Positions 43,764 to 64,000 of a DNA stretch of 64,000 nucleotides are shown here, one piece after another. The translations under genes and the position numbers were made by a program. The notes beneath the pieces were generated by a model, which was not told where the DNA came from, searched no databases, and saw only the letters and a list, made by a program, of their open reading frames with translations. Numbering within the stretch: the first letter of the stretch is position 1; each line of letters begins with the position of its first letter. The DNA comes from a virus: positions 79,855-143,854 of IMG/VR virus record IMGVR_UViG_3300042261_000588. One strand, 5' to 3'.

Positions 43764-43770
43764 ACCTATT

Positions 43771-43972: not shown

Positions 43973-43996
43973 ACTTCCAATGGAATGGTGTATAAT

Positions 43997-44287: not shown

Positions 44288-44394
44288 ACGCTTGTTCGGG
44301 ATCAGGAGAAGCAGAAACCGCCTCTGTTCGTTAGGAGGGTAATCCCCCGATGCCAACTTGGATGTGTTCCATGGCAAGCATCTATTTCAGTTAT

Positions 44395-44480: not shown

Positions 44481-44491
44481 TGAAATATTTT

Positions 44492-44520
44492 TTCACATTT
44501 TACTGTGGGTCGAGTATAAT
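44492..44520 (+). promoter_or_regulatory. Sigma70 promoter for lipoprotein gene
   Basis: TTCACA (44492-44497), 17-base spacer, TATAAT (44515-44520), the best sigma70 match in the window. Leader of about 85 bases with a GAGCCA/TGGCTC hairpin precedes the lipoprotein ATG. Confidence 0.75.
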
Positions 44521-44612
44521 ATCTTGATCGGTATAGCAGCGAGCCAAAGTGGCTCCGATTAAGACGGTCATAGTTGGCCGTTGAATCGCTGAGGTAATTA
44601 GGAGAAGTTCAA

Positions 44613-45119: not shown

Positions 45120-45184
45120 GATAAGTATCAGCGTGGTTCTTGAAGGGGCGTTTCGATGAAGAGTCGGACGCCTCTTGTATTTAT

Positions 45185-45271
45185 GCCAACGTGACCTGAA
45201 TTGGTAAAGGCCCTGATTTGTAATCAGGTAGTTCCGAAAGGATCGTGCAGGTTCGATGCCTGTCGTTGGCT
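45185..45271 (+). tRNA. tRNA with Thr anticodon TGT and long variable arm
   Basis: 87 bases. Acceptor GCCAACG/CGTTGGC, anticodon arm CCTGA-TTTGTAA-TCAGG, 18-base variable region with TCC-GAAA-GGA, T arm GCAGG-TTCGATG-CCTGT, T73, no encoded CCA. Confidence 0.75.
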
Positions 45272-45509
45272 CGGGAAGCAAAGTTGGGGCACCTCTACGT
45301 GGTGCTGACTAGAAACAGCAGGAGTGCTGGCTAAGACCCCAATCGAAGGTTGATGATGGTAAGGAACCTCATAGCCTTTTATTCTTTGAAATAGGTGAAT
45401 GTCGAGACATCAATGAGGCAGAGTTCGATGCTTTGTTCAAGACAGGCTTGTGCTTTGCGGTTGTCATTATTCTGAATGGATGCTAATTTTGCAGGGAGGA
45501 ACAAGAAGT
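45272..45509 (+). other. Spacer in tRNA array
   Basis: Contains pairing segments (GGGGCACC/GGTGCTG region near 45285-45315) but no gene or known RNA. Confidence 0.25.
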
Positions 45510-45585
45510 AGGCGTGTGGTCCAATTGGTCGGGCACCGGTCTCCAAAACCGGACTATGTGGGTTCGAGTCCCGCCACACCTGCCA
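45510..45585 (+). tRNA. tRNA-Trp(CCA)
   Basis: Acceptor AGGCGTG/CACACCT (one mismatch), anticodon arm CCGGT-CTCCAAA-ACCGG, CCA encoded. Confidence 0.85.
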
Positions 45586-45668
45586 AAACCAGAGAGGTGG
45601 ATTCGACTTCCGCTCACCATGCCAATCTGATCCGCAAAAAAATCTGAAGAAAAATCTACAATTTTTGT

Positions 45669-45698
45669 TTGACTTATCCCGTTGATTTGGTGTAATAT
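45669..45698 (+). promoter_or_regulatory. Sigma70-like promoter
   Basis: TTGACT (45669-45674), 18-base spacer, TAATAT (45693-45698). Would transcribe the structured region 45700-45995. Confidence 0.5.
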
Positions 45699-45889
45699 GG
45701 ACTGGAATGATGAGTCATGGAAGAGTTGTAAAATGATCAGAACTTCAAATCACTGGAAGTTGGTTGTCGGCTAGAGCGCTTTCAGCTTGCGGAAAACAAG
45801 TCAGGAGTCTATAGTTCCTGATGTTCAAAAGTCTCATAGAATAAAAATCTATGAAAAGGCAACTGAGTAGAAATTTTTGGATTTATAGG

Positions 45890-45992
45890 TCAGTGGCAGA
45901 GGGAAAATGCACGGGTATGCCCGGTCTCAGGGTTCGGTTAGTGGGCGAGCTGATCTCTGAGTGAAAGATACCAATCTTTCCTGACCTATTAA
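45890..45992 (+). ncRNA. tRNA-like structured RNA
   Basis: Closed by ATAGGTCAG/CTGACCTAT (9 perfect pairs). Inside: GCA/TGC arm, CGGG-TATG-CCCG hairpin, CTCAG/CTGAG long arm, and GAAAGAT-ACCA-ATCTTTC hairpin next to the closing stem. The layout mimics acceptor, D, anticodon, variable and T arms, but no canonical anticodon or TTCGA loop is present. Confidence 0.4.
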
Positions 45993-46022
45993 TCTTGTTG
46001 TGAAAACATTGTCTTGCCGGAG

Positions 46023-46028
46023 TATAAT
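46023..46028 (+). promoter_or_regulatory. TATAAT -10 element before ClpS gene
   Basis: GAGTATAAT ends 5 bases before the ATG at 46034, so transcription would begin at or near the start codon (leaderless). Confidence 0.45.
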
Positions 46029-46033
46029 GAGAC

Positions 46034-46372
46034 ATGAATACTAAAAAAGGCAACGGGATTGAAGAACTCTGGAAACAAACGAAGAAGAAAATTCGTATGG
46101 ATCAGGTTCACACAGAAATTGATCACAAGGTTCTTGCCGCTGGTGATCTCTGTCAGGTCGTCCTTTACAATGACGATCATCATACAAGCTCTCATGTGGT
46201 AAAGTCTTTGATTGCGATTTTTCAACATTCACAGGCAATAGCTGAGAAGATCATGCTCGATGCTCATAATTCTGGACGGTCGGTTGCCGAGGTTGAGGAT
46301 TATGAGAAGGCAGTTGAACATGCCAAGCAATTAGCTGAGGCTGGTTTGAAAGCAGAAGTAGAGTCGTTTTAA
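46034..46372 (+). CDS. clpS: ClpS-like N-degron adaptor
   Basis: 112 residues. CQVVLYNDDHHTSSHVVKSL matches the ClpS V-x-L-x-N-D-D core. QAIAEKIMLDAHNSGRSVAEV and YEKAVEHAKQLAEAGL follow in ClpS order. ClpS delivers N-end-rule substrates to ClpAP. A phage copy could redirect host ClpAP or protect phage proteins (inference). No Shine-Dalgarno; a TATAAT lies just upstream. Confidence 0.85.
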   Translation: MNTKKGNGIEELWKQTKKKIRMDQVHTEIDHKVLAAGDLCQVVLYNDDHHTSSHVVKSLIAIFQHSQAIAEKIMLDAHNSGRSVAEVEDYEKAVEHAKQLAEAGLKAEVESF

Positions 46373-46513
46373 GCAAAACTGTAACAAGCCAAAGATAAAG
46401 TGCGACAACGCTGATAACTGCGCAGGCAAACAAGAAAAGTAGGAGAAGTAATGGAAGCACACTAGTTGGCGAAGTTGTTATTGGACAATTAATCTCGAAT
46501 GAAGAGTAATTTT

Positions 46514-46589
46514 GGGGCTATAGCACAATTGGTAATGCGGCAGCTTTGCAAGCTGTTCGGTACGAGTTCAAGTCTCGTTAGCTCCACCA
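46514..46589 (+). tRNA. tRNA-Ala(TGC)
   Basis: Acceptor GGGGCTA/TAGCTCC, anticodon arm GCAGC-TTTGCAA-GCTGT, CCA encoded. Confidence 0.9.
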
Positions 46590-46668
46590 AAAATTCGGGA
46601 GTGTTGGACCTTGTTGCGTCCGACTACCCATGAACACAACAACCGCCAGCGGGCGGAAAGGAGCGCCT

Positions 46669-46911
46669 ATGCGCATGTCCTCACGAAAAGGCCAGACGAT
46701 GGTCGAGTACATCATCATTGTCGTCGTGATTGCCATCACCCTGATCTTGCTCTTCTCCAATTTGGGCAAGGCCATTGGCAAGAAGGTCACCGGCGCGACA
46801 GCCGCCATAGACCAAGAGGTCGGTGAGGCGGCGGCGGCGACGTATGACACCCTGAGCGCCAATCCGGTTCGGGATTTAAATGCAGACGGGACGATGGTTG
46901 GCACGCCCTAA
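46669..46911 (+). CDS. Flp-type pilin-like protein
   Basis: 80 residues. RKGQTMVEYIIIVVVIAITL is the Flp/Tad class III signal and hydrophobic N-terminal helix (G before Q, Glu at +5 from cleavage). Ala-rich C-terminal part. GAAAGGAG precedes ATG. GC-rich codon use unlike the surrounding tRNA region suggests acquisition from a bacterial chromosome. Confidence 0.7.
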   Translation: MRMSSRKGQTMVEYIIIVVVIAITLILLFSNLGKAIGKKVTGATAAIDQEVGEAAAATYDTLSANPVRDLNADGTMVGTP

Positions 46912-47077
46912 GCGGGAACGGGCACCATGGCAAGGGTGGCGATCAGGGCTCGTGATGCGCGTCGCCTCCGGTGCAGTAGTGGGCATTACACAAATTTGTT
47001 AGGCTTACAGAGAAGATATGGCGCGTAGCCGCGCCGATGTTCACCGCCGACGATAATCATCAAAAAGGAGAAGAAGT

Positions 47078-47491
47078 ATGAAGATTGGGTTTATGTCTTT
47101 GTTTTTCGTGTTTGTTGCAGGATGTGCCACTGGACCCTACACGCCGATTCGGACATCGAGTTTGAAGGGAGAAAAAGTCATTTATTTCGAGCAGGTAGAT
47201 CGGGTCCCGAAAGACGTATTGATGCTCTTGTGTGAGAAAAAGGATGACGGCACTATGAGTGCGAGAGTCATGCCTTGGATTGAACTTATCCCGATGATCG
47301 AGAAGCTGTCGGATGTCGCCCCAGAGATCGTCACTTCGTATAGCCAAGAGAGAATGGAAAACGCCATGATCACAAGGAGAATGCTGTTTCGTGGATATGA
47401 TGGCACGAATGACTTGGTGGAGATCGAGAGGATCATAAAGACGATGGGTGGAAACATCGAGAATTGGTCTGCGAAGAAGGACAAGCCGTGA
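47078..47491 (+). CDS. Lipoprotein of unknown function
   Basis: 137 residues. LFFVFVAGC lipobox. Mature part acidic/basic mixed, helical; no family recognised. AAGGAGAAG precedes ATG. Confidence 0.6.
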   Translation: MKIGFMSLFFVFVAGCATGPYTPIRTSSLKGEKVIYFEQVDRVPKDVLMLLCEKKDDGTMSARVMPWIELIPMIEKLSDVAPEIVTSYSQERMENAMITRRMLFRGYDGTNDLVEIERIIKTMGGNIENWSAKKDKP

Positions 47492-47646
47492 GAAAGCCTA
47501 GACTGACAGAGGACATCGCTCGTGGCATTATGGGTTGGATGAGCTTCGGCAGATATTGCTGCTGACTCTGATCGTCTTGCGGTAGATATGGAAGTTATCA
47601 CAGAAGTTTGAACGCAACCCAGTGTCGTGGAGTGAAAAGTAATTTT

Positions 47647-47722
47647 GGCGGGTTAGCTCAGTTGGTAGAGCAATGGAATCATAATCCGTGCGTCGGGGGT
47701 TCGAACCCCTCATCCGCCACCA
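47647..47722 (+). tRNA. tRNA with CAT anticodon (Met or Ile2), copy 2
   Basis: Acceptor GGCGGGT/ATCCGCC, anticodon loop ATCATAA, T arm GGGGG-TTCGAAC-CCCTC approximately, CCA encoded. Confidence 0.85.
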
Positions 47723-47735
47723 TGTTTAATTATGA

Positions 47736-47813
47736 CGGTAAGTAGTTCAGTCTGCTTAGAACGCTCGGTTTGGGTCCGAGAGGCCGTGGGTTGAAATCCC
47801 ACCTTACCGACCA
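47736..47813 (+). tRNA. tRNA-Pro(TGG)
   Basis: Acceptor CGGTAAG/CTTACCG, anticodon arm CTCGG-TTTGGGT-CCGAG, CCA encoded. Confidence 0.85.
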
Positions 47814-47875
47814 CCGGCTCCAGAGGAGGTTCGGCAGGGAAGGACAAACAAGAAACGGAAGGAGATTGGGACAAC

Positions 47876-47986
47876 ATGGAAGCAATGATCGTCGTTGGGC
47901 CGGAGAAGAGACAAATGAAAAGGGACGGAGCCATGGACCTTGCGCGCGGAACCTTACAAACACCAACACCAAGGAGAAGAAGATGA
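47876..47986 (+). CDS. Possible 36-residue peptide
   Basis: AAGGAG about 11 bases before ATG, and the stop overlaps the next start (ATGA). Arg-rich C-terminus. Kept because of the coupling only. Confidence 0.25.
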   Translation: MEAMIVVGPEKRQMKRDGAMDLARGTLQTPTPRRRR

Positions 47987-48540
47987 GTGATCTGAAGTTC
48001 AACTGTCCGCACTGCCAACAGTCCCTCGAAGCGCCCGAAGAACTCCTTGGCCAGACGATCAACTGCCCGTCATGTAATGGCCGCATTCAATTGCCAAGTC
48101 CACAGCCCCGGCAACCGGCCAAGCCATTGCCACCACCACAGAAGAAGGTCGTTCTCAACAAACCGCAAACGGCACCACCGCCACAAACCGGCCGGACAAA
48201 GCCCTGCCCGTTCTGCGGCGAACAGATCCTAGAAGTAGCGAAGAAATGCAAACACTGCGGCAGCACTGCCAGCCAAAGCAAGAAGCGCCTTCTTCCTGCC
48301 TTCTTGCTGTGCTTTTTCTTTGGCGTACTCGGTATCCATGCCTTCTACGTCGGCAAGGTCAGTCAAGGCATCGTCTTTCTGGTCCTCTTTTTTGGGGCAT
48401 TTGCCCTCGACGCCGCAAACAGTATGTTGAGTGAGTTGCCGGTACTACTGCTCTTCGTCTGCTTGTTCGGAGACCTCTTCCGCCTCGCGGTGGGAGCGTA
48501 CAAAGACACTGATGGAAACAAGATAACTCAGTGGATTTGA
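47983..48540 (+). CDS. Zinc-ribbon TM2-domain membrane protein
   Basis: 185 residues. Zinc knuckles CPHCQQ/CPSCNG and CPFCGE/CKHCGS, a Pro-rich linker, then LLPAFLLCFFFGVLGIHAFYVGK and GAYKDTDGNKITQW, the TM2 domain with its D-x-x-G-N-x-I-x-x-W end. Two transmembrane spans are predicted. AAGGAG precedes ATG. Host-like gene, GC-richer than the phage core. Confidence 0.8.
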   Translation: MSDLKFNCPHCQQSLEAPEELLGQTINCPSCNGRIQLPSPQPRQPAKPLPPPQKKVVLNKPQTAPPPQTGRTKPCPFCGEQILEVAKKCKHCGSTASQSKKRLLPAFLLCFFFGVLGIHAFYVGKVSQGIVFLVLFFGAFALDAANSMLSELPVLLLFVCLFGDLFRLAVGAYKDTDGNKITQWI

Positions 48541-48610
48541 GTGCATCGAGGCCAGATCAGAGCCGAACCAGCGCCTCCATTTTACGTCGCTTAGCGCCGA
48601 AGGGCTTCAA

Positions 48611-48940
48611 ATGATTGAGATCAAGAACGTCAAGACCTATAAGGGTGATGGATTCAGAGTTGATCGGTCTTCTCCTTTAGGAAACCCGTTCTTGGTTGAT
48701 GCCAAGACATCCCGGACGATGGCTATAGCACAATACCGGGAATGGCTCTTGAAGCGTCTGGAGACATACAATCCCACTTCCAAAGCTTTCATGGTGCTTG
48801 TCGAGTATTATCGTCGAGAGGGAAATATGACTTTGATTTGTCATTGCGCTCCGCTTCAATGTCACGCAGAGATCATAAGAGAGTTTGTCTTAGAGGCAGT
48901 TGATGTAATGGGAGATAAAAAAGTTGAAATCACGAGTTGA
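48611..48940 (+). CDS. DUF4326-like protein
   Basis: 109 residues. VDRSSPLGNPFLV and LICHCAPLQCHAEII match DUF4326, a small Cys/His-containing family frequent in phages and mobile elements. Function unknown. Confidence 0.7.
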   Translation: MIEIKNVKTYKGDGFRVDRSSPLGNPFLVDAKTSRTMAIAQYREWLLKRLETYNPTSKAFMVLVEYYRREGNMTLICHCAPLQCHAEIIREFVLEAVDVMGDKKVEITS

Positions 48941-49274
48941 CAAATTTGCCGCCAAGATGCGTAAGAACAAGTCGTGGCCTGAGAAGAAGCTTTGGGCTAA
49001 GATCAAGAACGATCAGCTAGGTGTTCGGTTCTATGCTCAGAAGGTCATTCTGGGTCACTACATCGCAGATTTCTATTGCCCAAAGGCTAATTTGGTCATC
49101 GAGACTGATGGCAAGCAGCATCTTAAGAAGGCGGCTCAGGAGCACGACAGGGAGCGTGATGAGGCGATGGCTAAAATAGGGATCAAGACAGTGAGGTTCA
49201 CGGCGCAGGAGGTTGCCAACAATCTTCCGGCTGTTGTCGTCATGATACAGAAGATCGTTCAAGAAAGAATCTGA
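48924..49274 (+). CDS. DUF559/Vsr-like endonuclease
   Basis: 116 residues. SWPEKKLWAKIKNDQLG, VRFYAQKVILGHYIADFYCPKANLVIETDGKQH carry the D-F...E-x-D-G-x-x-H core of DUF559 (Vsr-related PD-(D/E)XK fold). TTG start with GGGAG upstream, overlapping the previous gene; ATG 48957 is an alternative. Confidence 0.75.
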   Translation: MKSRVDKFAAKMRKNKSWPEKKLWAKIKNDQLGVRFYAQKVILGHYIADFYCPKANLVIETDGKQHLKKAAQEHDRERDEAMAKIGIKTVRFTAQEVANNLPAVVVMIQKIVQERI

Positions 49275-49278
49275 TTCA

Positions 49279-49308
49279 TTCCTTATTTGGGCAGGATTTT
49301 GGTAATGT
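49279..49308 (+). promoter_or_regulatory. Conserved promoter-like element, copy 2
   Basis: TTCCTTATT, 13 bases, GGTAATGT, then ATGGGTGTAAG. Upstream of the Lar-like gene. A CTGGC-GGCTT-GCCAG hairpin follows in the leader (49343-49357). Confidence 0.6.
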
Positions 49309-49372
49309 ATGGGTGTAAGGGCGATACAAAACACAAAGCTGACTGGCGGCTTGCCAGCCAAGGATGATTGAC

Positions 49373-49597
49373 ATGAAGAAGAACGCAACCGTGGAAGCCG
49401 TACAGCCCGACTTGTTGGAGTGCCCGTTCTGCGGGCCAGTCGAGATCGTTCACCGGTGGGCTGGCAACGTCGAGATCAAGCACAAGCCTGCGTGCTTTCT
49501 GCACGCGATCACTACACTGCACGGAGCGGCGCACATCGCGGCGTGGAATCGACGATACTCCAACGCCCGGCTTGATCGACAGGAGGAAGTACGATGA
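49373..49597 (+). CDS. Lar-like (restriction alleviation) zinc protein
   Basis: 74 residues. LECPFCGPVEIV, a Cys later, and AAHIAAWNRRY match the layout of Lar-like proteins (C-P-F-C-G ... W-N-R-R). Lar-type proteins modulate type I restriction. C-terminal tail SNARLDRQEEVR recurs in other genes here. Overlaps the next ATG. Confidence 0.6.
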   Translation: MKKNATVEAVQPDLLECPFCGPVEIVHRWAGNVEIKHKPACFLHAITTLHGAAHIAAWNRRYSNARLDRQEEVR

Positions 49598-50025
49598 GTG
49601 GATGCAAAGAACACCCGGATGGACAGCGTGGTTGTATGTATTGCGCAGAGGTTGGGTTACTTGAGCGAATTGCCGAGCACCCCCCTGTACGGTCGGAGCC
49701 GTTGTTGTCGAACGATCCCGTTCAACAGCCGGGGATCGGACCGCAAGGAGACCGTATGACTGAGACAAACACAACGCGGGCTGCCGGTAGTTCTGCACAG
49801 GCTTGTTGGCCGGATGAGCGTGCCGAGGAATTGAAGGTCTTGCAACAACTGCTGGCGACCATCTCAGGGTTGAATCACGGTAGCGGCTTCGTCGAATCGC
49901 TCCAATGGTGCATCGCGGCTGCAAAATGTCTGCAGCACAGCGACATCGCAGGGTTGAGGTCGAGTTTCATCGACCACCTATTGCGCGACTGCGTTGCGGA
50001 GCGTACGGCCAAACAGCCCGCATAG
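49594..50025 (+). CDS. Small protein sharing N-terminus with 63899 gene
   Basis: 143 residues. N-terminus SGCKEHPDGQRGC...CAEVGLLERIAE is almost identical to the gene at the window end. The C-terminal part is a separate helical region. AGGAGG precedes ATG. Unknown function. Confidence 0.55.
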   Translation: MSGCKEHPDGQRGCMYCAEVGLLERIAEHPPVRSEPLLSNDPVQQPGIGPQGDRMTETNTTRAAGSSAQACWPDERAEELKVLQQLLATISGLNHGSGFVESLQWCIAAAKCLQHSDIAGLRSSFIDHLLRDCVAERTAKQPA

Positions 50026-50116
50026 CTGCGGCTAAAAGAACCTGAAGGCGGACAAGGTTTTGAATGCGTTGAGCGACGAGTGCCTTGCTCAGAGGATGAA
50101 TGGAGTGTAGGTCAAA

Positions 50117-50386
50117 ATGAGTAATAACGTCAAGAGGGTTATCACAGTTGTCAAGGAATCCGACCACAATGGTCGATTTGCTCTGAATGAGTGTCTGGTG
50201 ACAGAAGGGAGCATCTCGCGGACGGCTTACTGGTCTGACGGGACTCTGAAGGTGGAGCAGATGCAGGACAAGCTGATTGCTGAGGGTGCTAATCCAGCCA
50301 CTGTTGAGGAGTTTCGACAAGTCGTCTATGACTATGGTTACGAGAATGGAATGGAAGTGGTTGAGGAGGCTGTGGCGTTGGGATGA
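50117..50386 (+). CDS. Small protein of unknown function
   Basis: 89 residues, strand then helix, acidic. Weak ribosome site. Unknown family. Confidence 0.45.
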   Translation: MSNNVKRVITVVKESDHNGRFALNECLVTEGSISRTAYWSDGTLKVEQMQDKLIAEGANPATVEEFRQVVYDYGYENGMEVVEEAVALG

Positions 50387-50392
50387 CATAAA

Positions 50393-50468
50393 GCACCAAT
50401 AGCTCAGTTGGTAGAGCGGGACCTTCCCAAGGTTCAGGTCGTCGGTTCAAACCCGATTTGGTGCTCCA
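50393..50468 (+). tRNA. tRNA-Gly(CCC)
   Basis: Acceptor GCACCAA/TTGGTGC, anticodon arm GGACC-TTCCCAA-GGTTC, CCA encoded. Confidence 0.9.
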
Positions 50469-50495
50469 ATAGTTGATGAAAAGAGGAGACAAGCG

Positions 50496-50729
50496 GTGAA
50501 AGTGATTGGATCAACGTGGTTCTCTGAGATGGGCAGCGCAACTCCGATTGGAATCGTTCTAGTCGAGTTTGACAAGGCAGAGCAGCAAGATTTTGGTGCG
50601 TTTGCCCTGGCGGCATATATTGGAACGTCTGCAGGTCTCTCAAAGGAGATGGACGAGGAAAGAATCGTGAAGAATGGTGCGAGGTTTCCTGTTTCTGCTG
50701 CCAAGATGATGATCGGGCGAGGAGTATGA
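50496..50729 (+). CDS. Small protein of unknown function
   Basis: 77 residues from a GTG. WFSEMGSATPIGIVLVEFD core; resembles small phage proteins of unknown role. GAGGAGAC lies upstream. Overlaps the next start. Confidence 0.45.
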   Translation: MKVIGSTWFSEMGSATPIGIVLVEFDKAEQQDFGAFALAAYIGTSAGLSKEMDEERIVKNGARFPVSAAKMMIGRGV

Positions 50730-50977
50730 AAAATCGTGGAGTTCGCAGGGATCATGAAAAACGGATTAAGGCCAGAGTCAAGAAGGTCTTAATTTCCAAG
50801 AAGAATTTTTGCAAGTCTGCTTGTGAACCTTCCGAAGCGCCTACGAAGAAGGTGATTGGTCGGCTGGCGGCTGTTCACGGCGCTGCTTGTTCTTGCCAAA
50901 TGTGCGGAAATCCTCGAAGATATGCCAAGGGAAAAGGAAAGATCACGATGCAGGAGCGGAGGTTGAAAGCGATTTGA
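50726..50977 (+). CDS. Small zinc-binding protein (CxCxMCGNPRR type)
   Basis: 83 residues. NRGVRRDHEKRIKARVKK, then CSCQMCGNPRR and TMQERRLKA. This basic, Cys-containing pattern is common in small bacterial and phage proteins of unknown function. Confidence 0.6.
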   Translation: MKNRGVRRDHEKRIKARVKKVLISKKNFCKSACEPSEAPTKKVIGRLAAVHGAACSCQMCGNPRRYAKGKGKITMQERRLKAI

Positions 50978-51075
50978 CTTACGACATCTACAACCCTGAC
51001 ACCATGTGATTCTGTTTCGGAATGTCGTGAATGACGCCGTTGTAGTCGGTTCAGAAAGGGTATAATGATTTAAGT

Positions 51076-51149
51076 GCGGGTGTAACTCAATGGTAGAGTG
51101 TCAGCCTTCCAAGCTGATTACGAGGGTTCGATTCCCTTCACCCGCTCCA
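51076..51149 (+). tRNA. tRNA-Gly(TCC)
   Basis: Acceptor GCGGGTG/CACCCGC, anticodon arm TCAGC-CTTCCAA-GCTGA, CCA encoded. A TATAAT at 51061-51066 lies 10 bases upstream. Confidence 0.9.
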
Positions 51150-51165
51150 ATGATTAATGTGATTT

Positions 51166-51242
51166 GGCCCTATGGCGCAATTGGACAGCGCAGCGGTTTC
51201 CTAAACCGACGGTTGGGGGTTCGATTCCCTCTAGGGCCGCCA
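51166..51242 (+). tRNA. tRNA-Arg(CCT)
   Basis: Acceptor GGCCCTA/TAGGGCC, anticodon loop TTCCTAA within CGGT/ACCG, CCA encoded. Confidence 0.85.
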
Positions 51243-51252
51243 ACGAAGATAT

Positions 51253-51329
51253 ACCCCCGTAGCTCAGATGTATAGAGCGGAAAATTTCTAATTTTCGGGT
51301 CGCAGGTTAGAGTCCTGCCGGGGGTACCA
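51253..51329 (+). tRNA. tRNA-Arg(TCT)
   Basis: Acceptor ACCCCCG/CGGGGGT, anticodon arm GAAAA-TTTCTAA-TTTTC, CCA encoded. T loop TTAGAGT has A for C56. Confidence 0.85.
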
Positions 51330-51340
51330 AGATGTTTGAT

Positions 51341-51415
51341 GAGTCTATGGTGTAATGGATAGCACCTTACCCTACGAAGGTAATAGTCTGGGTTCAACTC
51401 CCGGTAGACTCACCA
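51341..51415 (+). tRNA. tRNA-Arg(ACG)
   Basis: Acceptor GAGTCTA/TAGACTC, anticodon arm TTACC-CTACGAA-GGTAA, CCA encoded. Confidence 0.9.
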
Positions 51416-51428
51416 GTTTGTAGGAGAT

Positions 51429-51502
51429 TGGCTCGTGGTGTAATTGGCAGCACGTCACGCTCCAGTGAAGGATTGCAGGTTCGATTCCTGCCGAGTCAAC
51501 CA
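51429..51502 (+). tRNA. tRNA-like gene with 6-base anticodon loop (Trp-like)
   Basis: Acceptor TGGCTCG/CGAGTCA, D and T arms normal, CCA encoded. The anticodon hairpin pairs best as TCAC-GCTCCA-GTGA, a 6-base loop. If the T is U33 the anticodon would be CCA (Trp). One base may be missing. Confidence 0.55.
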
Positions 51503-51540
51503 AGTGTTTTCGATATTCAGATCAATGATGTTTTGGAGAT

Positions 51541-51617
51541 TGTCCTCTAGCTCAATTGGACAGAGCACCTGACTTTGACTCAGGTGGTTGGTGGTTCGAA
51601 TCCACCGGGGACAGCCA
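51541..51617 (+). tRNA. tRNA-Gln(TTG)
   Basis: Acceptor TGTCCTC/GGGGACA, anticodon arm CCTGA-CTTTGAC-TCAGG, CCA encoded. Confidence 0.9.
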
Positions 51618-57090: not shown

Positions 57091-57240
57091 AGGTTAAGCC
57101 GTGCGTCGGTCTTACCATCAACGGAGGCTCATCAACGCACTGGATGTAGCCAGCAGAGTAGCGATCTGCCCACCCATTTAAACAAGGACGAGATAGAAGG
57201 TTAAGCCGTGCGTCGGTCTTACCATTAACGGAGGCTCATC
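57091..57240 (+). repeat. Direct repeats without gene
   Basis: A 43-base unit (57091-57133 and 57198-57240) flanks a 62-base unit (57134-57195) that recurs at 57957-58018, where it supplies the ribosome site for the 58018 gene. The surrounding 56989-57318 has no gene. Confidence 0.7.
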
Positions 57241-57294
57241 GATAAAGCTCAGTTTCGCGAGGAACGAGCGTAAAACTGGAACGCCTTGTTGGGC
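57223..57294 (+). repeat. attC-like imperfect palindrome 1
   Basis: CATTAAC...GTTGGGC ends; inside CAGTTT-CGC / GCG-T-AAAACTG pairing and AACGCC. The right end fits the GTTRRRY core, the left end misses RYYYAAC by one base. The next gene starts 24 bases later. Confidence 0.35.
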
Positions 57295-57318
57295 GTTCCG
57301 TAAACGAAGAGGAAGACT

Positions 57319-57528
57319 ATGCAATACCCAGAAACCGAACCGATTTGCTCTTGCGATGAATGTGTTTACAAATTCCCAAAGCAAGAGTGGTGCCATAGAC
57401 TTTCAGTAGAGTTGCCGAAGGGTAGGCGTTGTAGCCTTTCTATTCGCAAGACGCCCAACGCCCCGCATCAGGCGCAAGCGGTAGCGAGTCGCCCTGAATG
57501 CGGTTGTTCGCAGGAGGATCAACGATGA
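57319..57528 (+). CDS. Small cysteine-rich protein
   Basis: 69 residues: CSCDEC, EWC, RRC, CGC. The C-terminal third reads through an attC-like palindrome. GAGGAAG precedes ATG. Unknown family. Confidence 0.5.
   Translation: MQYPETEPICSCDECVYKFPKQEWCHRLSVELPKGRRCSLSIRKTPNAPHQAQAVASRPECGCSQEDQR
57453..57509 (+). repeat. attC-like imperfect palindrome 2
   Basis: Left end GCCCAAC fits RYYYAAC; GCAT-CAGG-CG pairs with CGCCCTGAATGC leaving single unpaired bases, as in attC; right end GTTGTTC only partly fits GTTRRRY. Confidence 0.4.
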
Positions 57529-57758
57529 AGTGCCACAAGTGCCAGAAGGAAATGACCATGACGCCGGTGTGCAGCGAGTGCGGCATCATCCCGATTGCAG
57601 ATGCATCGTTTCGGCAACGAGATGACGAAATCAAACGGCTACGATACGCGCTTGAGAAGATAGCCAACTGGACGGGCGGGACTGAGTGTCCAATGGAGAT
57701 TGCACGCAAGGCTCTCTCTGCCAACGCCCGGCTTGACCGGCAGGAGGAAGCGCGATGA
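57525..57758 (+). CDS. Zinc-ribbon small protein with shared tail
   Basis: 77 residues. CHKCQKEM and CSECG knuckles, then a helix, and tail NARLDRQEEAR shared with two other genes. AGGAGG precedes ATG; overlaps the next gene. Confidence 0.6.
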   Translation: MKCHKCQKEMTMTPVCSECGIIPIADASFRQRDDEIKRLRYALEKIANWTGGTECPMEIARKALSANARLDRQEEAR

Positions 57759-57946
57759 AGACGACAGCCAAACAGCGGAAGCATCGCCGCGCTTCCTCCT
57801 GTACTGGTCGAAGCTGTTGTTCGGTTTTTCGTGCGACGTTCAAGGCGACGTTGGCGCATTGCAACCGATGTGGCAGCACGTTCAACAACATCGACGGGTG
57901 CCCGGTGTGCGGCACGGACAGGTATCTGACGCATGACTGCAATTAA
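57755..57946 (+). CDS. Small zinc protein with sequestered ribosome site
   Basis: 63 residues; CNRCGSTF and CPVCGTD knuckles. The AGGAGG ribosome site (57742-57747) is inside a 14-base arm (57741-57754) exactly complementary to 57788-57801 in the coding region, so translation may be structure-controlled. Confidence 0.55.
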   Translation: MKTTAKQRKHRRASSCTGRSCCSVFRATFKATLAHCNRCGSTFNNIDGCPVCGTDRYLTHDCN

Positions 57947-58017
57947 TAAACCAAACAACGCACTGGATGTAGCCAGCAGAGTAGCGATCTTCCCACCCAT
58001 TTAAACAAGGACGAGAT

Positions 58018-58347
58018 ATGAAAGAAAAAGACCATCCTTTTTACTGCTACAAGACCAACCAGCGCAAGTCGGCATGGAATACGCCGGGCTATCTGACAAA
58101 AACCGACTGGCAACTCGTGGAGAAACTCATTGACGCCTCTGCTGACGAGGAAAAGTTCTTGAAATTCATCTGTGGTTGGTTGACTTGTGATGAGCGGTTT
58201 GCTATCTTCTATCGGATACTGGGTTGGCCCGAAGGAAACACTTATTGTTACGACCCGGAGTATGTGGCCAACACATTCTATCCGGGATTCCTAAAACACA
58301 TTTTGGCGAAGCTTAAAGAGGCATTGGACAAGCATGAGCAAGGGTAA
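58018..58347 (+). CDS. Protein of unknown function
   Basis: 109 residues, helical, with aromatic clusters (FYRILGWPEGNTYCYDPEYV). AAGGACGAG ribosome site is part of a 62-base direct repeat. Overlaps the next gene by 14 bases. Confidence 0.5.
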   Translation: MKEKDHPFYCYKTNQRKSAWNTPGYLTKTDWQLVEKLIDASADEEKFLKFICGWLTCDERFAIFYRILGWPEGNTYCYDPEYVANTFYPGFLKHILAKLKEALDKHEQG

Positions 58348-59014
58348 AAATAATGGTATCATAGTTATTGGGGATGTTCATGGTCGTTTCGGAGACATGA
58401 ACACTCTCATCAAAAAGAAGAAGCCGGAGCTTGTATTGGCTTGTGGGGACTTCGGTTATTGGCCCCGGTTTGCGAATCATGTAGATAAGTTCGGGAACAG
58501 AATCAAGATAACTGAACCGAAGGCTGGTAAGGCAAAGATTTACTGGTGTGATGGAAATCATGAGGATCATCATGCTCTGAAGGATGCCCCTCTGGATGGA
58601 CAGCTCTGGACTAACGTCTTCTATCAGCGTCGTGGAAGCACGATCACTCTACCTGATGGCAGAGTCGTGTTGTTTATGGGTGGGGCGGAGTCGGTTGACA
58701 AACAATCTCGAATTGAGGGGAAGACATGGTTTCCCGAGGAGAGCATCACTCAGGCGGATATTGACGCTATCCCTACTGGCAAGATAGACATTGTAATTAG
58801 TCATACCTGTCCGATGGAGTTCGAGATGCAAACGATGTATGGGAATCATCCCGAGAGGGGAAGTCGGATGGCATTGTCAATCATTCTAGAGAAGGTCCAG
58901 CCGAAGGAGTGGTTTTTCGGGCATTGGCATCAGAGGGTGTTCGGCGATTATTACGGCATTCGCTGGACGGCCCTGAATATGCTCATGGAGTCAGGATGTT
59001 GGACTTGGCTGTAA
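58334..59014 (+). CDS. Calcineurin-like metallophosphoesterase (2)
   Basis: 226 residues. VIGDVHGRFGD, LACGDFGYW, CDGNHEDHH, VISHTCP and FFGHWHQ give the complete di-metal set. Not closely similar to the 18370 enzyme. Substrate unknown; phage members often act on phosphorylated ends or nucleotides. Confidence 0.8.
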   Translation: MSKGKNNGIIVIGDVHGRFGDMNTLIKKKKPELVLACGDFGYWPRFANHVDKFGNRIKITEPKAGKAKIYWCDGNHEDHHALKDAPLDGQLWTNVFYQRRGSTITLPDGRVVLFMGGAESVDKQSRIEGKTWFPEESITQADIDAIPTGKIDIVISHTCPMEFEMQTMYGNHPERGSRMALSIILEKVQPKEWFFGHWHQRVFGDYYGIRWTALNMLMESGCWTWL

Positions 59015-59018
59015 AATC

Positions 59019-59048
59019 TTCCTTATTCTGACCTATTTTCGGTAATGT
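59019..59048 (+). promoter_or_regulatory. Conserved promoter-like element, copy 5
   Basis: TTCCTTATT, 13 bases, GGTAATGT. Upstream of the secreted protein gene. Confidence 0.6.
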
Positions 59049-59085
59049 ATGGGTGTGAGTTAATGTTCAAGAAAGGCGGGATGCT

Positions 59086-59856
59086 ATGAAAAAGTTGGTT
59101 AGTAAGGTTGTCATTCTGGCTGTCATCTCCTTGGCTATGTTTGCCTCGGCGCAAACACCATGGGCAGGACATGCGAATTTTGGCGGCAAGGCCAGCAAGA
59201 CTGGAAAACCCACTGGCACTAAGAAATATAAGGTGGACTCTGGTGTTCAGAATAAAAAAACGATGGAAGACACATTTGGCACAATAAAGCCTCTGAGTTC
59301 ATCTGGCTCTGCCAAAGCCGATGCAAATACAGTGATTTGGGACGGTCAAAAAGTAACAATCCGAAGTGGTCAGGTCTTTAATGGATTTGTTTTAGAGCTT
59401 TCCTATGGGACGATAGGTGCGTGTTCAAACACATATCTGATTAAAGAAGGATCAACCGGTAAGATCGTCTTTTCAGAAAGTGAGAAGGACGCTTACTGCG
59501 AAACATTCAGGAAGATCGGCGAAGAGATGGAACGGGCTAAAACGAAAAGAGCTAAATCATTTACAAAGAGTATTCCGTGTTCTGTAGATGGGGTACAATT
59601 TGTGTTTGAATGGACTTCAAAGCCGATTGCGTCTTCAAATAAGAATGCCTTGGAGATTCCAAAAACAATCGATTCCTGTCGTGTTGTTTTTACGAAAACC
59701 GATCTTGTTACGAAGAATGTTTTAACAGGTATTTTTAACAAGCCTGAAATGTTAGGCGAGTTTCTCAAAATATTGACCTCGAAGGATCGGGACATCGTGG
59801 TGGAGTTCAATAAGAGAAATGGGACTCCATCTGATGCTGAGAAAAACTCCAAGTAA
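59086..59856 (+). CDS. Secreted protein of unknown function
   Basis: 256 residues. N-terminal signal peptide (basic start, VVILAVISLAMFASA, cleavage probably after ASA). Mature part Lys/Ser/Thr-rich with two cysteine pairs. Unknown family. Confidence 0.6.
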   Translation: MKKLVSKVVILAVISLAMFASAQTPWAGHANFGGKASKTGKPTGTKKYKVDSGVQNKKTMEDTFGTIKPLSSSGSAKADANTVIWDGQKVTIRSGQVFNGFVLELSYGTIGACSNTYLIKEGSTGKIVFSESEKDAYCETFRKIGEEMERAKTKRAKSFTKSIPCSVDGVQFVFEWTSKPIASSNKNALEIPKTIDSCRVVFTKTDLVTKNVLTGIFNKPEMLGEFLKILTSKDRDIVVEFNKRNGTPSDAEKNSK

Positions 59857-59861
59857 GATTC

Positions 59862-59893
59862 TTCTCGTATTCCGGTTGATTTTTTGGTAATGT
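59862..59893 (+). promoter_or_regulatory. Conserved promoter-like element, copy 6
   Basis: TTCTCGTATT, 14 bases, GGTAATGT; TAATGT ends 6 bases before ATG 59900, suggesting a leaderless mRNA. Confidence 0.55.
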
Positions 59894-59899
59894 AGTGAT

Positions 59900-60067
59900 A
59901 TGGAAGAGACCAAAACTATCGAAGAACCACGCAAGGCAGTGGACTCAACCAATGCCGCCTATGGCGAAGTTCTGGCTGCCAGCCGAAAGGCTACAACTGC
60001 CGCTTACTGCGCTCATGCAGATGTTAAGGCTGTTTACACCGCTCTCGCCGACGCCATTTCGGGATAA
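59900..60067 (+). CDS. Small Ala-rich protein
   Basis: 55 residues, helical, Ala/Lys/Glu-rich. No Shine-Dalgarno; starts 6 bases after the TAATGT of the promoter-like element. Unknown. Confidence 0.45.
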   Translation: MEETKTIEEPRKAVDSTNAAYGEVLAASRKATTAAYCAHADVKAVYTALADAISG

Positions 60068-60076
60068 GGAGACTCT

Positions 60077-60778
60077 ATGAACAGGTGGTGGATCGCTGAT
60101 ACCCATTTTAATCACGCAAACATAGCGAAGTATACAAATCGTCCTCAATTGAAGCCGGGCGACTTGGATGCGTCTGGGGAATGGGTATCTCCAGATGTCG
60201 CTTTTCAGCGTGCTGAGAAGATGAATGCCGATCTTATTCGTGATTGCAATCAACGGGTTAAGATGGGTGATACGGTGGTCTGCGTGGGTGACTTCTCCTG
60301 CCGTGGTGGAGAGAAGGGAGTTCGTGGTCTGCATGTCGCTCCTGCAATAATTCAGGCTCAGTTGAATGGCAATTGGGTAATTATCGATGGCAATCACGAC
60401 AAACAAAATGGCGTCAAGTCTGTTGCCAACTTCATGTCCTGTGAGATCGCCAAGTATCGAGTTGGTGTCCAGCATCGTCCGCTTCAAGATGAGGAAGCCT
60501 ATCTGAAGTGGAAGGCTCTTTCTCCCGCTGAGAAGGCGGCTAATCCGTGGCGAGATCGCATGTCCGATCAGTGGCGGGAGCATGAGTTTATTCACGCTTC
60601 CTACTGCCGGAGAATGTTTGACTTCATGATTTGTGGACACGTTCACAATGCATGGAAGGTCAAGAAGGTCGCTGGTATCTGGCATGTGAATGTCGGTGTG
60701 GATGTGAATCGCTATATGCCTATCAATGATCAAGAGGTTGTCCAGATTTACGAGAAGGCCGTGAGAGGTGTAGAATGA
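60077..60778 (+). CDS. Calcineurin-like metallophosphoesterase (3)
   Basis: 233 residues. WIADTHFNHANI, CVGDFS, IIDGNHDKQ, FMICGHVHNAW. This is the phage/plasmid subtype with D-T-H-x-x-H at motif I. Third such enzyme in the window. Overlaps the next gene. Confidence 0.8.
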   Translation: MNRWWIADTHFNHANIAKYTNRPQLKPGDLDASGEWVSPDVAFQRAEKMNADLIRDCNQRVKMGDTVVCVGDFSCRGGEKGVRGLHVAPAIIQAQLNGNWVIIDGNHDKQNGVKSVANFMSCEIAKYRVGVQHRPLQDEEAYLKWKALSPAEKAANPWRDRMSDQWREHEFIHASYCRRMFDFMICGHVHNAWKVKKVAGIWHVNVGVDVNRYMPINDQEVVQIYEKAVRGVE

Positions 60779-61215
60779 CTAAGCAAGAACAAAAGATGCT
60801 TCAAGAGGTTGCTCTGAGGAACGCCATCGCAAGATATCGGGCAAAGTCCAAGACGGCATCGCTTCCAGAAGTGGGTATTTTCTGGATTGATCTCAAAGGG
60901 ACGATGTTCTCCGAGAGCGTTTCAATCAGGGACGCAGAGGATTTCGGAGACTTCAAAATCTTCGGTGGGGATCACTATAACTTGTGGTACAAGGCTGTGC
61001 GTGAAAACCCGCAGTGGGACGGTCTCGAATATGAGGATGTTCCTCGTGGTCGTGTTATCTGGCACAATATCCCGAAGAAGCCTGAGTTCGTCGTTTATCT
61101 GCCCAAGGAGATACTTCGGTATAAGGGCAAGGTGATTACTCAGTTCAATCTTCCAATTGGTCATGTTCGTTTCGATACGACCGACGAGCACTATCGGATG
61201 GTTGCTGGACAATAA
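60775..61215 (+). CDS. Protein of unknown function
   Basis: 146 residues; strand-rich middle (VGIFWIDLKGTMFSESVSI). Coupled to the phosphoesterase by a four-base overlap, so possibly functionally linked. Confidence 0.5.
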   Translation: MTKQEQKMLQEVALRNAIARYRAKSKTASLPEVGIFWIDLKGTMFSESVSIRDAEDFGDFKIFGGDHYNLWYKAVRENPQWDGLEYEDVPRGRVIWHNIPKKPEFVVYLPKEILRYKGKVITQFNLPIGHVRFDTTDEHYRMVAGQ

Positions 61216-61217
61216 CG

Positions 61218-61445
61218 ATGTGTGACGAAAAAGTCAAGCTGCGATTGAAGATGCCAGCAGACCTGAGCCGGACTGGAAAGGTCTATACAAGAGATGTGCC
61301 GATTGACGCTTGCATTGCTCCACTCGTTGACGCTCTGAACAAGGCTGGCATATTGACTCGACAATCGTGTTGTGGTCATGGTAAAGTCAATGGATTCATA
61401 GAGTTACAGGACGGAAGAACACTTATCATTCAAGGGAGTTTGTAA
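61218..61445 (+). CDS. Small protein with SCCGHG motif
   Basis: 75 residues. PLVDALNKAGILTRQSCCGHGKVNGFIEL is a recurrent small phage pattern of unknown function (L-N-x-x-G-I-x-T-x-x-S-C-x-G-H-G). Confidence 0.55.
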   Translation: MCDEKVKLRLKMPADLSRTGKVYTRDVPIDACIAPLVDALNKAGILTRQSCCGHGKVNGFIELQDGRTLIIQGSL

Positions 61446-61526
61446 CATGACATGGCGGGAGAAAGTAGACTCAGGTAACTGCTTCTAGAGCAGAAATACG
61501 ACCAGAGAAACGCCGGAGGCTGGCAG

Positions 61527-61604
61527 TGTTGGTCGGACCAGCACGCGCCATCAGGGCTTTGGACATCAGAAGTCAGAGCCCTGATGGCGGGCCGGTCCGA
61601 CACG
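61527..61604 (+). other. Large RNA hairpin
   Basis: Outer arms GTCGGACC/GGTCCGAC and inner arms CGCCATCAGGGCT/AGCCCTGATGGCG form a long stem. Lies in the 280-base gene-free region 61446-61725, upstream of the last promoter-like element. May terminate or protect the upstream transcript. Confidence 0.55.
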
Positions 61605-61689
61605 GGTTTAAAAACCTAAAAGGCATTGTCAAGTGTCGGCGAATAATACTGGGAAAAGGGTTGAAATCTCCCGTCATGTCGCCATTTTT

Positions 61690-61719
61690 TTTCATATTCT
61701 GACTGACTTTTGGTAATGT
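61690..61719 (+). promoter_or_regulatory. Conserved promoter-like element, copy 7
   Basis: TTTCATATT, 13 bases, GGTAATGT; TAATGT ends 6 bases before ATG 61726. Confidence 0.55.
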
Positions 61720-61725
61720 ATCGAC

Positions 61726-61878
61726 ATGAAGATCGAAGTTATTTTATTTTTCTCGCTTGCGATTCCACTCGCATACGCATGGGATGCTATTCGTGATTTA
61801 AGGAAAGAAATCAAGGAATTAAAGAAGGCCAACGCCGGGGCTCATGCTTCGGCACGTAGCGAAGCGGAGTGCCGATAG
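61726..61878 (+). CDS. Small membrane peptide ending in attC-like repeat
   Basis: 50 residues: hydrophobic helix (VILFFSLAIPLAYAW), charged helix, then KANAGAHASARSEAECR encoded by the repeat at 61827. No Shine-Dalgarno, probably leaderless. Confidence 0.45.
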   Translation: MKIEVILFFSLAIPLAYAWDAIRDLRKEIKELKKANAGAHASARSEAECR

Positions 61879-61898
61879 CATGAAGCCTATTGTTGGGC
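61827..61898 (+). repeat. attC-like imperfect palindrome 3
   Basis: Ends GGCCAAC (one mismatch to RYYYAAC) and GTTGGGC (fits GTTRRRY). Inside, GGGGCT-CATGCT-TCGGC pairs with GCCGATAGCATGAAGCCT with single unpaired bases. Contains the stop of the upstream gene and the ATG of the next (GATAGCATG). Confidence 0.5.
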
Positions 61899-62398
61899 CG
61901 TCTTCTGATTTCTGTCTAACGCCAGATGTTATTGCTGCGGATATTGTGCGTCATTTTGCGCCGACAGGATGTATGCTTGACCCGTGCAAGGGTGAAGGCG
62001 CATTCCTGCGCCACATGCCCGGTTCGGAATGGTGCGAGATTCGGGAGGGGCGGGACTTCTTCGAGTGGAATAGACCGGTTGACTGGATTGTGAGCAATCC
62101 GCCATATTCTTGTTTTCGGAAGTGGTTACGGCACAGCAGACAAATTGCAGAGAACATTGTGTATCTTGTTCCAGTGTTCAAGGCAACAAACTCCTGTCAG
62201 ATATGGAAAGATTCATTGTCGTGGGGGGAGGTAAGGGAAATGAGAATCTATATCAATTCTGGTATTCCGTGGCAACGAGGGCGACCATTATGTGCGACCC
62301 ATTGGCAGAAAGGTTATCACGGGGCAATGGATGTTTCATACTACAAGCCCAACGCCGGGGCTCATGCTTCGACACGAAGCGGAGGGCCGATAGCATGA
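61880..62398 (+). CDS. Small N6-adenine-type DNA methyltransferase
   Basis: 172 residues. TPDVIAADIVRHF, MLDPCKGEGAFLRHMP (AdoMet site), WIVSNPPYSCF (catalytic NPPY). Short for the family with no clear target domain. N-terminus MKPIV and C-terminal tail NAGAHASTRSGGPIA come from the flanking repeats. Confidence 0.7.
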   Translation: MKPIVGPSSDFCLTPDVIAADIVRHFAPTGCMLDPCKGEGAFLRHMPGSEWCEIREGRDFFEWNRPVDWIVSNPPYSCFRKWLRHSRQIAENIVYLVPVFKATNSCQIWKDSLSWGEVREMRIYINSGIPWQRGRPLCATHWQKGYHGAMDVSYYKPNAGAHASTRSGGPIA

Positions 62399-62413
62399 AG
62401 CCTATTGTTGTAC
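62347..62413 (+). repeat. attC-like imperfect palindrome 4
   Basis: Left GCCCAAC fits RYYYAAC, right GTTGTAC only partly fits. Same internal sequence as the 61827 copy. Spans the junction of the two methyltransferase genes. Confidence 0.45.
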
Positions 62414-63090
62414 GTCTTTCCGATTCCGTGATGATCATCCACGGGGACTGCCGGGATGTTTCGGCAATGTTTTCAAATGCGGACTGCCTGTTTATGGACC
62501 CTCCGTTTGATGAGTGGGAGGGCGTTTCTGTGGACGGCAAAGAAACGACCGTCTGTTTCACAAACTGGCAGAACCGCAACTATGTCGAGCAAAAGTATGG
62601 AAAGCCGCGTTGCGAAATTGTGTGGCACTTCAAAGATGGAAGATGGGTTAGCCATACCCTTCCGCGCATAACACATGAATCAATTTTGATCTATGGGAAA
62701 ACTGGTGATGCTTATGTTGGTGAAAAGAATGCCGACATGACTCCGAAAAACAAGGGGGCCGGGTGTGTCGGGCGCGACAAAATGCCAAAAAGAATGTGGA
62801 CGCCGAGGGAACGGAAGGCAATCAACTCGGTGGTTGAGTTTCCGCGCAATGTTTCTGGATCAATGGGGTGCTGGGGGAAACCCGTTGAGTTGATGGATTT
62901 GCTTGTTCGTTGGGTTTGTCCGCAAAAAATGGTGGCTGACCCGTTTATGGGTAGCGCGTCGTGCGGAGTTGCCTGCATAAGAAACGGGATTCCGTACATA
63001 GGCGTAGAAAAAGACGCAGACACATTCGCCACGGCGCGGAAACGGCTGGAGCAGGTGGTGCTGAACGTGAAGGAGGTGCATCATGGTTGA
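62395..63090 (+). CDS. DNA methyltransferase (DPPF class)
   Basis: 231 residues. IHGDCRDV, FMDPPFDEW (catalytic), then CWGKPVELMDLLVRWV and VADPFMGSASCGVACIRNG (AdoMet site), the beta-class order. Single-domain enzyme, target unknown. ATG lies inside the preceding repeat. Overlaps the next gene. Confidence 0.75.
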   Translation: MKPIVVRLSDSVMIIHGDCRDVSAMFSNADCLFMDPPFDEWEGVSVDGKETTVCFTNWQNRNYVEQKYGKPRCEIVWHFKDGRWVSHTLPRITHESILIYGKTGDAYVGEKNADMTPKNKGAGCVGRDKMPKRMWTPRERKAINSVVEFPRNVSGSMGCWGKPVELMDLLVRWVCPQKMVADPFMGSASCGVACIRNGIPYIGVEKDADTFATARKRLEQVVLNVKEVHHG

Positions 63091-63355
63091 AGTCATTATC
63101 TACATGGGTCAGTGGCACTCGCGCACGACGATTCCGCGCCCTGTCTCTGGAGACACCATCCGGCATCGCGGGAGGTTGCTCCCGGTCAAAGCCGTGACGC
63201 TCCGGTCTGGATCGCCAATCGTCGAGGTGAGCGTGGACGAAATGCACACATATTCCGAGTGGGACATGCGCAACGACGGATGGGAGTTCACTCCGAACAG
63301 CGCGATATGCGTCAACGCCGAGGCTCACGGGCTGGCGACCGAAGGGAGGCGATAG
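63083..63355 (+). CDS. Small protein of unknown function
   Basis: 90 residues, strand-rich. C-terminal tail VNAEAHGLATEGRR is encoded by a further copy of the attC-like repeat (63311-63375). Confidence 0.5.
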   Translation: MVEVIIYMGQWHSRTTIPRPVSGDTIRHRGRLLPVKAVTLRSGSPIVEVSVDEMHTYSEWDMRNDGWEFTPNSAICVNAEAHGLATEGRR

Positions 63356-63375
63356 CATGGAGCCTACTACTGACA
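63311..63375 (+). repeat. attC-like imperfect palindrome 5 (diverged)
   Basis: GTCAACGCCGAGGCTCA...GGCGATAGCATGGAGCCTACTAC aligns with the 62347 copy, again spanning stop and start codons. Ends are degraded. Confidence 0.4.
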
Positions 63376-63722: not shown

Positions 63723-63902
63723 ATGAAGAACAACCAGAAACCATCGCGGGCCAGCCGTAGTGCTCGACGCTCTCGTTCGCCGGCAAAGCAGTGGGCGCAA
63801 CAAATCCAAGAGGAGGGCATGCTGCCGGATGACCCAAATGATCCACTGTTGCAGGACTCTGATAACAACGCCCGGCTTGACCGACAGGAGGAAGTACGAT
63901 GA
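63723..63902 (+). CDS. Small basic protein with shared tail
   Basis: 59 residues. Ser/Arg-rich start (RASRSARRSRSPAKQW), then EEGMLPDDPNDP and tail NARLDRQEEVR. A 15-base AAGGAGAACAAACC unit is duplicated just before the ATG. Confidence 0.5.
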   Translation: MKNNQKPSRASRSARRSRSPAKQWAQQIQEEGMLPDDPNDPLLQDSDNNARLDRQEEVR

Positions 63903-64000
63903 GTGGATGCAAAGAACACCCGGACGGACAGCGTGGCTGTGGGGATTGTGCAGAGGTTGGGCTACTTGAGCGAATTGCCGAGGGTCTTCCTGTGAATTCG
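63899..64000 (+). CDS. N-terminus of a paralogue of the 49594 gene (partial)
   Basis: SGCKEHPDGQRGC...CAEVGLLERIAE; runs off the window. AGGAGG precedes ATG. Confidence 0.55.
   Translation, partial: MSGCKEHPDGQRGCGDCAEVGLLERIAEGLPVNS

Follow-up and report, generated by a model that had tools for sequence, protein, structure and literature searches.

Genes and palindromic sites at the locus

The DNA analyzed here (the window) is a 64,000-nucleotide stretch, bases 79,855 to 143,854 of a 143,854-base IMG/VR virus record, and site coordinates are window positions unless a contig is named. The virus is a large phage with genes for a DNA polymerase, a ribonucleotide reductase, a primase, a UvsX-like recombinase, and an RNA ligase. 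An earlier note had described palindromes resembling attC, the site of integron gene cassettes, at gene junctions beyond 57 kb and had read the region as an integron-like cassette zone. We searched the virus with a covariance model, R1, built from 15 aligned sites of three other phages (G001, G002, and G004) and with the window's virus excluded. R1 gave 14 matches at E values of up to 5, nine of them at up to 5e-4. All 14 are on the minus strand, and the genes are on the plus strand. The matches are as follows.

57238 to 57290, minus strand: weak attC (19.7 bits, E 0.02), right box GTTGGGCGT
57457 to 57508, minus strand: attC (32.2 bits, E 5e-6)
57723 to 57821, minus strand: long attC (29.9 bits, E 2e-5), with the ribosome-binding site (RBS) and ATG (57755) of the next gene within the hairpin
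61831 to 61894, minus strand: attC, the best site (39.8 bits, E 3e-8), with the next gene's ATG (61880) within the hairpin
62351 to 62409, minus strand: attC (36.7 bits, E 3e-7), with the next gene's ATG (62395) within the hairpin
63314 to 63371, minus strand: degenerate attC remnant (12.0 bits, E 3.4)
638 to 701, minus strand: attC-like site (26.2 bits, E 3e-4), left box ATC in place of AAC
L001 48-97, 320-414, 7294-7376, and 7559-7649, minus strand: further R1 sites of the same virus, outside the window
L004 2818-2909, 17999-18050, and 18297-18348, minus strand: further R1 sites of the same virus, outside the window

The sites lie at gene junctions, as had been described. At the three that the earlier note placed at 57453, 61827, and 62347 (R1 matches 57457, 61831, and 62351), we found the AAC...GTT ends and bulged internal palindromes that it reported. 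Its two weaker sites fared differently. The one at 57223 held up, as R1 match 57238-57290, whose right box GTTGGGCGT is the perfect 9-nucleotide complement of ACGCCCAAC, the left box of site 57457. The one at 63311 did not, since its GTT is lost (ACTGAC); its left half and GATAGCATGGAGCC are still conserved. Site 57723 had not been listed. We also found the three GATAGCATG stop/ATG junctions that had been noted within sites (61873, 62388, and 63350), a count that none of 100 shuffles reached. The ends follow RYYYAAC...GTTRRRY, with GTTCGGC instead of GTTRRRY in some boxes; site 63314 departs from this pattern. On the minus strand, the boxes of site 61831 are GGCCCAAC and GTTGGCC, and those of site 62351 are GTACAAC and GTTGGGC.

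Because no site was found between 57.8 and 61.8 kb, the zone consists of two clusters and is not one array. The reading as an integron-like cassette zone holds, on R1 matches, complementary cassette ends, and covarying bulged stems. The genes in and around the clusters are as follows.

57319 to 57528, plus strand: cassette open reading frame (ORF), 69 amino acids (aa), that reaches the next attC without a stop; the tail crosses site 57457, in phase 0 through AAC; no Pfam or PHROG match
57525 to 57758, plus strand: zinc-ribbon-like cassette ORF of about 77 aa (Zn_ribbon_6 matched weakly, E 0.0016, under the Pfam cutoff); starts after AGGAGG and ends within hairpin 57723
57755 to 57946, plus strand: ORF, 63 aa, starting within the hairpin of 57723
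61726 to 61878, plus strand: ORF, 50 aa, whose final codons NAGAHASARSEAECR and stop TAG are supplied by attC 61831
61880 to 62398, plus strand: cassette gene, 172 aa, DNA methyltransferase-like (PHROG 799, E 9e-23), ending within the next hairpin (ATGA overlap)
62395 to 63090, plus strand: DNA N4/N6 methyltransferase gene, 231 aa (Pfam N6_N4_Mtase, E 5e-11; PHROG 67, E 8e-26)
63083 to 63355, plus strand: ORF, 90 aa, ending within the degenerate site 63314

Several repeats lie in the same part of the genome. A 63-base direct repeat (98% identical, 57133-57195 and 57956-58018) flanks the cassette cluster at 57.2 to 57.9 kb. A 128-base direct repeat (90%) is found at 49560-49688 and at 63865-63993, the second copy being at the contig end; its opening bases are the left half of attC 57723 (CCAACGCCCGGCTTGA..AGGAGGAAGTACGATGA), with no matching right half. 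The intergenic motif TTCCTTATTCTGAC...TTTTGGTAATGTATGG recurs at 49279, 52317, 53172, 59019, and 61681 and is possibly a class of phage promoter. The window also holds 22 predicted tRNA genes within 10 kb (41634-51617), two of them with unassigned anticodons.

Structure and complementary ends of the sites

Two of the phages behind R1, G001 (L014/L021) and G002 (L018/L023), were located in viral contigs by a pattern from a window site. They have one 52-base site in common, identical in the two but set in different contexts, and both have many further bulged palindromes at consecutive gene junctions. A third contig, G004 (L027/L029), starts inside such a site and has an array at the opposite end. 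Their phage genes include those for a DnaB-like helicase (G001), a major head protein (G002), and an Erf-like annealing protein (G004). The G004 contig may have broken at attC repeats. Strong attC matches, the best at 55.3 bits, also lie at L028 (G004) 16955-18643, some 17 kb from the start of this 93.8-kb phage contig.

We found that all 15 inner pairs of the R1 stem show compensatory changes, with a covariation of 0.643 compared with 0.159 for the shuffled alignment and at most 0.173 for the slid one. R1 also matches three class 1 integron attC sites (41.7, 36.9, and 35.9 bits), one site in TJE1, a published attC-bearing phage, and, in bacterial genomes, attC sites next to intI, all 37 of which are on the canonical strand. 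By structure, therefore, the window sites are attC. In classical attC, the folded bottom strand has two extrahelical bases about 6 apart, both in the same arm (PMC3053210). The phage sites have two bulged bases on one arm of the stem with this N6 spacing; at site 61831 they are T-N6-A, on the strand opposite to the genes. These results confirm that the attC-like sites in the window are genuine, and the covariance-model check proposed in the earlier note gave matches down to E 3e-8.

We considered whether the sites are chance palindromes in a GC-rich region. The single-stranded DNA fold of site 61827 stands out from shuffles (z, -4.4), and the other sites were not distinguished from shuffles on folding energy alone, as chance would predict. 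A naive scan for AAC..GTT hairpins by energy or stem score was unspecific, many chance hairpins being equally strong, and we rejected it. Chance does not, however, account for matches to E 3e-8 by an independently trained model, for 14 of 14 matches on one strand, for stem covariation, or for ends that match at 8 to 10 nucleotides, and we regard it as hardly credible. No Rfam match at gathering scores was found in the zone, and BLAST of the zone against public phages returned nothing useful.

The ends of one cassette in an integron array, namely the right box of a site and the left box of the site that follows, must be complementary, whereas a single site joins boxes from different cassettes. 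In the G001 array, complementarity to the next site was 5.56 of 6 positions beyond the core; it was 2.6 inside single sites and 2.7 in other pairings (permutation p, ~1e-5). We saw this box chain in a known integron as well, that of Shewanella phage M16-3. When all the weak hairpins of the window's virus were required to have long complementary ends, the count (31) was no better than that for control pairing (40). We therefore redefined the sites by the independent model and retested them. Complementarity to the next site was then 4.0, compared with 2.6 (p, 0.003), and matching ends of 8 to 10 nucleotides were seen. Three of the seven neighboring pairs have perfect ends, including 57290 to 57457. 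GCCCAAC, the left box of site 62351, is complementary to GTTGGGC, the right box of 61831, with a match of 4 of 6 beyond the core.

Orientation of cassettes in phages and bacteria

The attC sites of the window's virus are reversed relative to its genes, since all 14 R1 matches are on the minus strand and the genes are on the plus strand. The usual arrangement, in which ORF and attC share an orientation (usual, not absolute), is thus not the one found here. Read in the gene direction with the same code as the phage sites, the class 1 site aadA2 and the Shewanella integron have their bulged bases on the 5' arm, and the Shewanella, Vibrio, and class 1 controls came out mostly forward. The bulged bases of the phage sites are on the opposite strand to those of the Shewanella and aadA2 controls.

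To compare viruses with bacteria, we searched with an alignment (A1) of four integron integrases. At least 272 viral contigs held a relative, of which 80 were kept, and 80 were likewise kept from a large number of bacterial genomes. For most contigs we relied on the IMG/VR classification. Automated orientation by longest ORF proved unreliable in GC-rich contigs, and we replaced it with one simple gene caller for both sets, based on codon-position GC and RBS, and scored orientation around model-defined attC sites. Bacterial arrays had 36 sites forward and none reversed (24 of 24 called contigs forward). Viral arrays, in contrast, had 26 sites reversed and 8 forward (18 contigs reversed and 6 forward). 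The site-level Fisher p value is 2e-12, calculated on sites that are not independent and that include three viral contigs with identical integrases.

The integrase tree has 17 reversed viral rows, and 16 of them fall, with three other viral rows, into one supported virus-only clade (96/94), which adjoins a group of proteobacterial integrases. The reversed layout dominates this clade. Coding bases upstream of intI point toward intI in 15 of its 18 contigs; at bacterial loci they point away in 21 of 21. Several of the viral contigs are shown to be phages by their tail, primase, ParB, and RecE genes. Two contigs gave separate observations. L091 has attC sites of equal scores at 8558-8609 and 9224-9275, 666 bases apart and beside a viral intI, and a cassette was likely duplicated there recently. 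L123 (CAMDDY010000492.1, titled Bordetella parapertussis isolate MaH-09apr19-209) is a metagenome-assembled contig with an integron integrase, and its pathogen label may be wrong.

We also examined the reading frame at the sites. At 27 of 29 sites of the window's virus, G001, and G002, the AAC of the left box is read in phase 0 by the upstream gene, giving tails such as PNAGAHASTRSGGPIA. The upstream genes have no stop of their own; their stops fall in or just past the hairpin. At many sites, including those with starts at 57755, 61880, 62395, and 63357, the RBS and ATG of the next gene are within the hairpin. In the integrase-bearing phages, where a TAAC box has a clear upstream gene, that gene mostly stops at the TAA of the box itself (phase 1). 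Reading continues through the other boxes in phase 0, and phase 2 was never seen.

These data bear on the idea that the sites are dead remains of bacterial cassettes, acquired by chance and functionless in the phage. Such decay would fit the loss of GTT at 63314, the mismatches at several neighboring pairs, and the scattered clusters. Yet bacterial cassettes are forward in every called contig and these are reversed, as in the phage integrase clade. The reading-frame phase also persists, at 27 of 29 sites, and the stems of the main sites are intact. We consider this explanation unlikely.

Cassette movement and a proposed phage integron lineage

Cassette gain and loss can be seen in two phages of the virus-only clade with the reversed layout, L061 and L062. 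Their IntI proteins are identical, and the contigs are 99.9% alike over 4 kb including intI, but entire cassettes are present in one and missing from the other. L061 site 6637 combines the left box of L062 site 6889 with the interior of L062 site 7340. The cassette between 6889 and 7340 is therefore precisely absent from L061. A second cassette shows the reverse pattern. The junction lies in the left box, equivalent to the canonical G^TT cut when the other strand is read, so the moving unit is the hairpin plus the downstream gene.

The repeats could instead be translational stop-start couplers, hairpins with an RBS spread by gene duplication or homologous recombination, and not integrase substrates. 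They do sit at stop-start junctions with an RBS and ATG, the half-copies of 57723 at 49560 and 63865 lie within a longer direct repeat, and the record has no integrase. A regulatory hairpin, however, predicts neither the N6-spaced bulge pair nor the AAC/GTT ends. Moreover, the complementarity is between neighboring sites and not within a site, the same model matches class 1 and bacterial attC, and cassettes are gained and lost at the box. We judge this account improbable, and somewhat more so than decay. T4-type phages have mobile regulatory cassettes (promoter-early stem-loops), junction hairpins tied to gene shuffling in large phages, which resemble the window's sites. We know of no attC fold, boxes, or integrase link in these cassettes.

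Taken together, these data support the earlier integron-like reading. Most probably, the zone consists of integron gene cassettes in a large virulent-type phage without its own integrase, with attC sites that are genuine but run against the genes. Each of the clusters 57238-57821 and 61831-62409 has at least two nearby attC sites and no integrase, as in clusters of attC lacking an integron integrase (CALINs). The earlier note had suggested looking for an integrase elsewhere. We found neither an integron integrase (TIGR02249) nor a tyrosine recombinase (PF00589) in the 143,854-base record, which may be a fragment, and thus no complete integron (intI plus attI). Since the record holds no integrase, the zone belongs to a known kind, the phage CALIN (Qi et al. 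2023, PMC9892861).

Several points weigh against this reading, beginning with the lack of an integrase in the record. The R1 E values rest on a short calibration. Homologues of the cassette methyltransferase occur in 13 other viral contigs, none with attC. The bulge orientation is ambiguous at L004 17999 and 18297, though R1 assigns the two sites to the minus strand. Some of the array may have decayed, because only three of seven neighboring pairs match perfectly and one site is degenerate. Finally, a search of IMG/VR with the phosphoesterase that flanks the zone found no relative of the window's virus for the comparison of gene order that the earlier note had proposed, and so exchange in this virus is inferred; cassette reordering was seen in the other phages of reversed layout, L061 and L062.

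We propose the following mechanism. On the coding strand, a cassette runs from a cut point in the left box (AA^C) through the attC hairpin and the ORF to the next left box, with the RBS and usually the ATG within or just past the hairpin. An integron integrase acting in trans, from the host or a coinfecting phage, would bind the attC bottom strand (here the coding strand) in its folded form and cleave the left box. The hairpin would then move together with its own gene, as a unit, and on arrival would give the upstream gene, which lacks a stop, a different C-terminal tail and a stop. Stop-start overlaps in the hairpin (TAGCATG and ATGA) would couple translation of the neighbors in any order. 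We infer the recombination in the window's phage, the integrase source, and, from sequence, the translational coupling. The earlier note had suggested that recombination would swap both protein tails and starts. We agree for the tail of the upstream gene, but a cut at the left box would keep each start codon with its own gene.

Clusters of attC in virulent phages, with methyltransferases and IntI1 activity, have already been published (Qi et al. 2023, PMC9892861). Like the window's virus, these phage CALINs combine attC with small cassettes, often encoding DNA methyltransferases, in virulent phages without an integrase, and some recombine with IntI1. Unlike it, TJE1 and PH101 are described as having the typical same-direction layout, whereas in the window's virus the genes run against attC and start and stop codons are in the hairpin. 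Divergent attC sites were noted only for P12002L, and no general rule was drawn (PMC9892861). Bacterial arrays (class 1, Vibrio, and Shewanella) share the attC fold, the two bulged bases, the box chain, and one or few ORFs per cassette. They differ in that the genes point away from intI with attC at the 3' end (36 of 36 called sites), and in the window's virus attC is at the 5' end. Virus Rctr41k (KX853513) is likewise a phage with methyltransferases, an integron integrase, and a six-site attC array, but its orientation is forward. This phage (L035 4680-10097) came from a DAMO enrichment culture and is absent from the main tables of Qi et al. 2023. In the openly searchable literature, with preprints and subscription papers outside the scope, we found no report of reversed cassettes as a phage rule or of start and stop codons within attC. 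We regard as new the reversed attC layout and the hairpin that carries the next gene's start and the upstream gene's stop.

Integrons are regarded as bacterial devices with a single layout. We think it probable, with less confidence than in the reading of the zone itself, that phages have an integron lineage of their own. According to this model, the virus-only integrase clade and the integrase-less phages use back-to-front cassettes with a 5' attC, the cut falls at the upstream gene's stop end, and the hairpin serves as a stop-start coupler. Such cassettes would therefore enter the phage operon along the direction of transcription, toward intI, and would be shuffled without a Pc promoter; the phage and bacterial pools would be largely separate. 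If this is true, phages trade small genes, such as those for methyltransferases, singly and with operon translation undisturbed, which would explain how phage operons gain in-frame, translationally coupled genes. Phages would then be a distinct reservoir of cassettes, and crossing between the two pools could be tested by standard recombination assays.

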